From Solobacterium sp. (GTDB lineage Bacteria; Bacillota_I; Bacilli_A; Erysipelotrichales; Erysipelotrichaceae), in NCBI GenBank assembly GCA_017469885.1, contig JAFUFO010000021.1, positions 124,001 to 188,000 on the forward strand: a stretch of DNA of 64,000 bases. Direction: 5' to 3'. Made by a program: the position numbers and the translations under genes. The notes beneath the pieces were generated by a model. The model was not told the origin of the DNA. It was given only the letters and a program-made list of their open reading frames with translations, and made no database searches. Positions within the stretch are counted from its first letter, which is position 1, and every line of letters begins with the position of its first letter. Shown here piece by piece: positions 15,598 through 18,082 of this stretch.

Positions 15598-15639
15598 AAC
15601 AGTTTCAGAAAATAATAATTGCTTTCTGAAAAATTATTG

Positions 15640-15893
15640 ACATCTTTCAGGCTGTGCATTACATTTAACTCAGTTCGATGAACAGAAGAGTAACTGCGCA
15701 GGGAACGCCAAGCGAGCCGGGGAGGGTGGAAGCCCGGCGGATTCCGGCACAGTGAAACCGGTCTGTGAGATGTTTTCCGGAACAGTACAGTATGGAAAAC
15801 CGTATCCGGCGTTAACGGGATAAAGGGGTCAGCTTCGGCTGGCAATCAGTGTGGTACCGCGGTTCAGGCCGTCTCTGAGGAGATGGCTTTTTT
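15640..15893 (+). ncRNA. T-box leader controlling the downstream symporter
   Basis: A tRNA-sensing T-box riboswitch fills most of the 320-base gap 15598-15917. The T-box sequence around 15843-15862 contains GTGGTACCGCGG, whose TGGT pairs with an uncharged tRNA ACCA end (discriminator A). The terminator stem GCCGTCTC / GAGATGGC (15868-15887) is followed by six T. In stem I the AGTA of the specifier loop (15689-15692) is followed by ACTG, pairing with CAGT at 15750-15753; GAA comes next and then the specifier. Lower helix ACAGA (15682-15686) pairs with TCTGT (15762-15766). By this geometry the specifier is ACC (threonine) at 15757-15759; a shift of one base gives CCG (proline). Confidence 0.93.
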
Positions 15894-15917
15894 CTGTAAA
15901 AGGGGGAGGAGTCAGTT

Positions 15918-17438
15918 ATGTCCACATCAGTCGCCGGCATCATTGCCGCAATCATCATCTACCTCGGCGGAATGCTGTATATCGGCTATCGCTTTTCGAA
16001 ACGCACCGAGACCGTCGGCGAGTTCTACCTCGGCGGACGGAAACTCGGACCGCTCGCAGCCGCAATGAGTGCAGAAGCCTCGGATATGAGCAGCTGGCTT
16101 CTGATGGGTCTGCCGGGCGTTGCCTATCTTACCGGCATCGCAGACGCCGCATGGACCGCGATCGGTCTTGCGGTCGGCACCTATCTCAACTGGCTGATTG
16201 TCGCCAAACGGCTTCGTCTTTATACCGCAAAGGTGGAGGCAATCACCGTTCCGGAGTTTTTCTCCCGCCGTTATCGCGATGAGAAAAAGATTCTGACGCT
16301 GATCGCCGCACTGATCATCGTGGTCTTCTTTGTACCGTATACCGCATCCGGATTTGCGGCCTGCGGAAAACTGTTCTCCACACTGTTCAATGCGGATTAC
16401 CATGTCGCAATGATCATCAGTGCAGTCGTCATCATTGCCTATACCGCAATGGGCGGCTTCATGGCCGTCAGTATCACTGACCTGATTCAGTCCATTGTCA
16501 TGACCATCGCGCTTGTCGTCATTCTGTTCTTCGGAATTCAGAGTGCCGGCGGAATGGATGCGGTTATAAACAATGCAAAATCGCTTGCCGGCTACCTCAG
16601 CTTGACACAGATTCATGACATGGCTTCCGGCAAGGCGGTTCCGTATTCCGCACTGACGATTCTCTCGACGACAGCCTGGGGTCTTGGCTACTTCGGCATG
16701 CCGCATATTCTGCTTCGGTTCATGGCAATTGAAGATGAAAACAAACTGGCGATTTCCCGCCGGGTCGGAACCATCTGGGTCATTATTTCCATGGGTGTTT
16801 CCGTCTTCATCGGTATCGTCGGCTATGCGGCTTCCGCAAACGGTGCCGTACCGATGCTGAGCGGTTCAGATTCGGAAACGATCATTGTCCGCTTCGCATC
16901 CCTGCTCGCAGAGAACGGTCTGCTTGCGGCACTCATCGCCGGTGTGGTTCTGGCGGGTATCCTTGCCTCGACAATGTCCACAGCCGATTCCCAGCTGCTT
17001 ACCGCGAGCTCCGCGGTCAGCCGGGACCTTCTCCAGGGTGTGCTTGGCTATGAGATGGACGCAAAGAAAACACTTCTTGTGTCCCGTCTTACCCTGATGG
17101 GAGTTGCGCTTGTCAGTGTGTTCTTCGCCTGGGACAGCACCTCTTCCGTATTCCGTATCGTCTCCTTTGCCTGGGCCGGCTTCGGCGCAAGCTTCGGACC
17201 GGTCGTCCTGCTTGCATTGTTCTGGAAGCGTTCGAACCTCTGGGGTGCGCTTGCCGGAATGCTGAGCGGCGGTGCCATGATCTTCATCTGGAAGTTCCTG
17301 GTACGTCCGATGGGCGGTGTGCTGGATATCTATGAACTTCTGCCCGCATTCCTGATTGCGCTTGCGGTCAATGTGGTCGTCAGTCTTGCGACACCTGCGC
17401 CTTCGAAGGAAATTGTGCGCGAGTTCGAATCTGTTTAA
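15918..17438 (+). CDS. Sodium:solute symporter, PutP-like (SSS family)
   Basis: Membrane protein of 506 residues with about 13 helices. SSS family hallmarks are the early GRKLGPLAAAMSAEASDMSSWLLMGLPG segment (sodium site region), AWTAIGLAVGTYLNWLIVAKRLR, VPYTASGFAACGKLF, AIEDENKL and MSTADSQLLTASSAVSRDL. Overall it most resembles sodium/proline symporters. GGGGGAGGAG lies just upstream of the ATG. It is the only gene behind the T-box leader, so it is switched on when one specific tRNA is uncharged. That makes an amino acid the likely cargo: proline by family, threonine by the specifier reading. I leave the symbol blank for that reason. Confidence 0.92.
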   Translation: MSTSVAGIIAAIIIYLGGMLYIGYRFSKRTETVGEFYLGGRKLGPLAAAMSAEASDMSSWLLMGLPGVAYLTGIADAAWTAIGLAVGTYLNWLIVAKRLRLYTAKVEAITVPEFFSRRYRDEKKILTLIAALIIVVFFVPYTASGFAACGKLFSTLFNADYHVAMIISAVVIIAYTAMGGFMAVSITDLIQSIVMTIALVVILFFGIQSAGGMDAVINNAKSLAGYLSLTQIHDMASGKAVPYSALTILSTTAWGLGYFGMPHILLRFMAIEDENKLAISRRVGTIWVIISMGVSVFIGIVGYAASANGAVPMLSGSDSETIIVRFASLLAENGLLAALIAGVVLAGILASTMSTADSQLLTASSAVSRDLLQGVLGYEMDAKKTLLVSRLTLMGVALVSVFFAWDSTSSVFRIVSFAWAGFGASFGPVVLLALFWKRSNLWGALAGMLSGGAMIFIWKFLVRPMGGVLDIYELLPAFLIALAVNVVVSLATPAPSKEIVREFESV

Positions 17439-17556: not shown

Positions 17557-17971
17557 CCACCTGCCAGGCAGGTGGAAGGCAGGTGCTTCTTGTAGAAAGA
17601 AGCACCCCATCTGACTAAGATGGTGAGTGTCGAAGTCACCAGAATAGAAAGATGAGGTGTTTAATATGGCCAAGAAGTACGATTCATTGGCACACACAAA
17701 GTATTATACAAGATACCATATCGTGTTCACTCCAAAGTACAGAAGAAAGGTAATTTATAATCAGTTGCGGAGAGACATCGCAGAATATATCAAGAGACTG
17801 TGCGCATACAAGGGAGTGGAGATAATCGAAGGGCATATGATGCCAGACCATGTGCACATACTAGTGTCGATACCACCGAAGATTTCGGTAAGCAGTTTCA
17901 TGGGATATCTGAAGGGAAAGCTGTCGATGATGATCTTTGAAAAACACGGGAACTTAAAGTACAAATTTGGC
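17557..17971 (+). mobile_element. IS200/IS605-type remnant, left end and 5' part of tnpA
   Basis: The left end shows the subterminal hairpin CCACCTGCC-A-GGCAGGTGG (17557-17575) and a second hairpin TGCTTCTT / AAGAAGCA just before the transposase start, both typical of IS200 leaders. Transposase coding sequence runs to about 17971 and then stops matching. No right end is visible. The outer left boundary is uncertain by a few tens of bases because IS200 elements make no target duplication. Confidence 0.8.
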
Positions 17972-18082
17972 AAGTGGAACTTCACGAAGTTTGTGATCGA
18001 CCGTGAAGGCAATGTCGTCGCCCGCTTTGAGCCGACTGCCGATATGGAAAAGGTCGAGGCATGCATTAAATCGCTGCTTTGA
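17666..18082 (+). pseudogene. Chimera: IS200 TnpA N-terminus fused in frame to glutathione peroxidase C-terminus
   Basis: Open frame of 138 residues. Residues 1-102 match IS200 Y1 transposases, including YHIVFTPKYRRKVIYNQ and the HUH motif H62-V-H64 within GHMMPDHVHILV. From K103 the protein changes to KWNFTKFVIDREGNVVARF, the well-known C-terminal strand and tail of glutathione peroxidases, to the stop. The catalytic Tyr of TnpA is lost, and the peroxidase lacks its N-terminal active-site Cys/Gln. Codon use also shifts at the joint, from AT-rich to GC-rich like the host. No peroxidase N-terminus is found upstream. I read this as a deletion that joined IS and peroxidase gene. Start is ATG 17666 with GATGAGG 8 bases before. 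Confidence 0.85.

Follow-up and report, generated by a model that had tools for sequence, protein, structure and literature searches.

The gene for a PutP-like transporter in Solobacterium sp. lies behind a leader RNA of the T-box class, and the locus raises the question of which triplet in this leader is read as the specifier and, with it, which amino acid is sensed. An initial annotation of the 64,000-nucleotide stretch analysed here (the window) read the specifier as the threonine codon ACC and named as an alternative a loop shifted by one base, in which CCG would be read as proline. Very probably, the leader is a transcriptional T-box with CCG (15758-15760) as its specifier, through which uncharged tRNA-Pro(CGG) would raise putP transcription. 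The features of the locus, in coordinates of the window, are as follows.

15637-15665, + strand: sigma-70-like promoter, TTGACA-17-TACATT (consensus scan, 10/12 matches)
15669-15879, + strand: T-box leader RNA (Rfam RF00230, 104.1 bits, model 1-219)
15682-15686, + strand: ACAGA, 5' arm of the helix beneath the specifier loop, partner TCTGT at 15762-15766 (sequence pairing and covariation)
15689-15692, + strand: AGTA, 5' side of the Stem I S-turn (sequence, Rfam alignment)
15693-15696, + strand: ACTG, paired with CAGT at 15750-15753
15754-15756, + strand: GAA, 3' side of the S-turn (Rfam alignment and sequence)
15757, + strand: A, spacer from GAA to the specifier, missing from two orthologous leaders (leader comparison)
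15758-15760, + strand: CCG, specifier, proline (register calibration, orthologues, TBDB rule)
15761, + strand: G, purine directly 3' of the specifier (G or A in 11/11 complete leaders)
15852-15858, + strand: TGGTACC, T-box bulge, predicted to pair with the tRNA 3' ACCA (RF00230 match; A73 of tRNA-Pro)
15866-15889, + strand: intrinsic terminator, 10 pairs and then a T run (terminator scan and fold)
15902-15909, + strand: GGGGGAGG, likely ribosome-binding site (read off the sequence)
15918-17438, + strand: gene for a putP-like sodium/proline symporter, 506 aa (TIGR02121, 493 bits; PF00474)

The T-box at 15669-15879 is real and well past chance expectation: the covariance match to RF00230 covers the full model with 104.1 bits (E 6.8e-22) and exceeds the gathering score of 93. 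It overlaps the terminator, as expected for a T-box leader, and the terminator itself folds with -14.6 kcal/mol (z -3.57). The promoter scan found 1 site, with 0.3 expected from shuffles. Folded alone, Stem I has a z of -0.96, and the antiterminator stretch folds no better than shuffles (z 0.55); consequently, the antiterminator assignment comes from the RF00230 covariance model. The two helices that flank the specifier loop, ACAGA/TCTGT and ACTG/CAGT, had been proposed in the initial annotation, and both pairings are exact. Across 11 orthologous leaders, pairing in these helices amounts to 85.6%, and at five of nine pairs both sides have changed (mean in shuffles 1.8, with 2 of 500 shuffles reaching this count); when the partner is displaced by 1-3 columns, pairing falls to 8-45%. 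The GAA at 15754-15756 had also been placed correctly, and ACC (15757-15759) does stand directly behind it.

The loop reads GAA-A-CCG-G-UCUG, with five bases from GAA to the closing helix. The triplet after GAA, which the initial annotation took to be the usual specifier position, is the specifier only when this gap is four bases; with the five bases present here, it is CCG, not ACC, that falls in the expected specifier slot. This register was calibrated on the T-boxes found in this genome (22) and on others from relatives, with loops parsed by script and genes labelled by comparison with the proteins of this genome, which yielded 54 labelled T-boxes (17 from the genome itself). The codon for the amino acid of the gene lies exactly one base from the helix in 42 of the 54, a count whose rows are not independent, since many are orthologues (valS, leuS, tyrS). 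Among these 42 are 28 four-base loops, in which the codon comes directly after GAA, and 14 five-base loops, in which it comes one base later.

The 12 rows that depart from this rule are mostly failures of the parser. The script mis-parsed L008, L013 and L020 and found no codon match in L010, L014, L015, L017, L019, L021 and L249; the codon lies two bases from the helix in L192, and in L011 (hisS-aspS), whose loop has six bases, the distance is one base if Asp is read. When read by hand from Rfam alignments, seven of the 12 (L008, L010, L013, L014, L015, L020 and L021) obey the rule, and the thrS leader of this genome (L015) carries U-ACC-G in the same slot. The trpS (L017) and lysS (L019) T-boxes of the genome, which have no clean AGTA/GAA S-turn, are read one base to the 5' side of the position given by the rule, two bases from the helix, which is the frame that ACC would need. 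Of the 18 five-base parses, 14 read one base after GAA, L014 and L017 have no match, and L013 and L020 read directly after GAA, both being script mis-parses according to the Rfam alignments. For five-base loops in which the 5' side has two bases, the arrangement of the putP leader, the calibration comes from methionine genes only (L004, L006, L185, L190). The hisS leader (L011, 1501-1716) has GACAC ahead of the helix, where the Asp codon GAC and the His codon CAC overlap and GAC is in the slot of the rule.

The proline codon CCG occupies this calibrated slot in the putP leader. A covariance alignment that assigns CCG had been named beforehand as evidence against ACC, and, as far as the RF00230 alignment can make such an assignment, the bases ahead of the closing helix line up as A-CCG-G. 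Under the specifier rule in the TBDB text (PMC7778990), bases 2-4 counted from the end of the specifier bulge take precedence, which yields CCG here. According to table 1 of the same source, CCG is a minority specifier for proline (0.10, with CCU at 0.60), and ACC is the commonest for threonine (0.60). A review (PMC7583486) describes a purine conserved directly 3' of the specifier, and G follows CCG in this leader.

Within the genus, the transporter has a match in 26 of 70 genomes. Its distribution is patchy, with an orthologue at least 62% identical in 15 of the 70 (this genome included). A complete T-box leader precedes the gene in 11 of these 15 (this genome and ten others). In the other four, the leader of L274 is partial and lies at a contig edge, L271 has no T-box within the only 126 bases that precede the contig edge, and L273 and L277 have no T-box ahead of the orthologue. 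All 11 complete leaders have CCG, and the base after it is G or A. Nine of them read GAA-A-CCG, with the spacer an A in every case, whereas L266 and L267 (the same as L198 and L199) read GAA-CCG-R, with no spacer A and with the 5' side of the loop longer by one base. Judged from these alignments, CCG stays put and it is the loop length that has been redistributed between the two sides. Every one of the 11 contains the letters ACCG, but in L266 and L267 ACC has to borrow the final A of the GAA in the S-turn. Invariance of the loop was dropped as evidence for CCG: ACC and CCG are equally invariant in the 11-leader alignment. Since invariance alone cannot part them, the support for CCG comes from its position relative to GAA and the helix. 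The leader L195, which is 96% identical, has the bulge TGGTCCC, in contrast to TGGTACC in the remaining 10 complete putP leaders. Beyond the genus, relatives of putP are mostly without a T-box: among 80 loci, several of them short upstream, only L023 and L044 carry a T-box motif, the covariance-model search having covered L023, L024 and L044. A wider DNA search of 395 genomes of the class found no full-length homologue outside this genome, and a DNA search of E. coli genomes with putP gave no match. Calibration, orthologues and the TBDB rule all point to CCG; thus, the threonine headline is unsupported, and the shift by one base to proline is supported. For reading raw sequence, a practical rule follows: the bases from GAA to the closing helix should be counted before a T-box specifier is named.

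The downstream gene had been described as PutP-like, and the description holds. Its product scores 493 against TIGR02121 (the PutP equivalog), under the cut-off of 515.5; five putP orthologues score 480-511. Its identity to E. coli PutP is 40%, and the two proteins agree at 15 of 18 compared positions, including R40, D55, S57, W59, Y140, W244, Y248, P252, S340 and T341, which we take to be sodium/proline residues of the E. coli protein; differences are present at C141, L181 and C344. A paralogue that is 30% identical is without D55, W59, W244 and Y248. By family and residues, the protein appears to be a PutP-type symporter and would transport proline. Matches to proB and proC are present in the genome (the proB match contains one TGA), and for this reason uptake probably supplements synthesis. 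Downstream of putP, a gene for an IS200/IS605-type transposase is present at 17666-18082 of the window.

The genome encodes tRNA-Pro(CGG) (L136), which matches the CCG specifier, as well as tRNA-Pro with the anticodons TGG and AGG, and the discriminator base is A in all three. It is also A in tRNA-Thr(GGT) and is G in tRNA-Arg. The UGGU of the putP leader bulge is complementary to A73 of tRNA-Pro together with the CCA end; as first noted, this motif fits an A discriminator and does not decide between the two amino acids. The tRNA-Pro(AGG) gene is located at L138:1501-1577, and A-starting anticodons are rare in bacteria according to the TBDB text (PMC7778990). No tRNA-Pro(GGG) was found in the genome.

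From these elements we infer how the leader would work. Upon proline shortage, uncharged tRNA-Pro(CGG) would pair with the Stem I codon CCG and, through its ACCA end, with the UGGU at 15852-15855, stabilizing the antiterminator. The terminator at 15866-15889 would then fail to form, putP would be transcribed, and the cell would take up proline.

The putP leader has relatives with other specifiers. A leader DNA search of 315 genomes of the order gave matches in 66, and, beyond the putP leaders, these include leaders that precede ABC transporter genes. Specifiers assigned by script to 52 rows (8 of 60 loci gave none) are CGC (Arg) in 38, CCG (Pro) in 10 and CAC (His) in 1, with 3 rows mis-parsed (L197, L219, L211); the codon search covered CGC, CCG, CAC and CGT only, so that the constancy of CGC is partly built in, while the variation of the spacer is not. 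The arginine-type leaders of the same genus are ~67-79% identical in DNA to the putP leader over the matched part and share its loop layout, but they carry CGC rather than CCG: at the equivalent position they read GAA-(A, C or G)-CGC-A, with the spacer C in 13, G in 21 and A in 4 of the 38. The Arg leader of this genome (L001) has the bulge UGGC, which fits the G discriminator of tRNA-Arg, in place of UGGU. The gene behind it encodes a substrate-binding protein that, among NCBIfam models, matches the lysine/arginine/ornithine type best, with a score below cut-off. By sequence, these leaders form one family in which Arg, Pro and His specifiers occur, a small natural series in which change of T-box specificity can be studied.

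A tree of the 52 leaders, with a poorly resolved backbone, groups the specifiers (6 changes, compared with a shuffled mean of 13.2), and Pro may have come from Arg. Change of T-box specificity following duplication is a known general route (Wels 2008, PMC2494555). In the arginine leader GAA-C-CGC-A, CCG is already present one base upstream, and without one base this leader becomes GAA-CCG-A, the proline form of L266. It is conceivable, if unlikely, that in this genus the family switched amino acid by sliding of the codon register in the specifier loop rather than by codon substitution alone, and that ACCG or CCGC leaders could pass through, or still hold, a state that accepts two tRNAs. Other members of the series are L241, an arginine-type (CGC) leader ahead of a zinc carboxypeptidase gene (PF00246), and its relative L250; release of C-terminal arginine would be a fitting role for a peptidase controlled by an Arg T-box. 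Homologous genes for family-5 solute-binding proteins stand behind leaders of this family with A-CAC-A (His, L228) and G-CGC-A (Arg, L204).

Two readings other than proline can be weighed against these observations. In one, the leader is a two-codon T-box, in which the overlapping ACC and CCG, with A73 in both tRNAs, sense shortage of threonine and proline alike. The spacer A is constant in 9/9 five-base putP leaders and variable in the arginine-type leaders, and the TBDB text mentions a tested system with alternative frames and counts 2,884 sequences with two possible frames and 3,551 with three (PMC7778990). However, the spacer is absent from L266 and L267, the nine five-base leaders come from one genus, where a constant A may reflect descent, and no metabolic reason is apparent for threonine control of a PutP; dual sensing is thus very unlikely. 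That the leader senses tRNA-Thr(GGU) through ACC alone and the transporter imports threonine is most improbable. This reading has in its favor the place of ACC behind GAA, its frequency among threonine specifiers, the encoded tRNA-Thr with A73 and the trpS and lysS frames, but it was rejected on the register calibration (14 of 18 five-base parses), the L266 and L267 leaders and a protein that scores best as PutP with its main residues kept. With CCG as the specifier, the sensed amino acid is settled as proline as far as sequence allows, which supports naming the gene a proline importer.

Compared with known systems, the putP leader has no structural difference from the RF00230 T-box leader (transcriptional, with a long Stem I): the whole model, the AGUA/GAA S-turn, the UGGUACC bulge and the terminator are all shared. 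A T-box ahead of a transporter gene is likewise found among the T-box-controlled amino acid transporters of Wels 2008 (PMC2494555); Table 1 of that paper, which covers 14 Firmicutes, has no proline-specific transporter and no entry for the sodium:solute symporter family. A proline T-box before putP is not claimed here as unpublished. The Bacillus proBA and proI T-boxes, as described in PMC13198045, sense proline through the specifier, as the putP leader would, but they use CCU and control genes of synthesis, whereas the putP leader carries CCG and precedes the gene for a sodium symporter.
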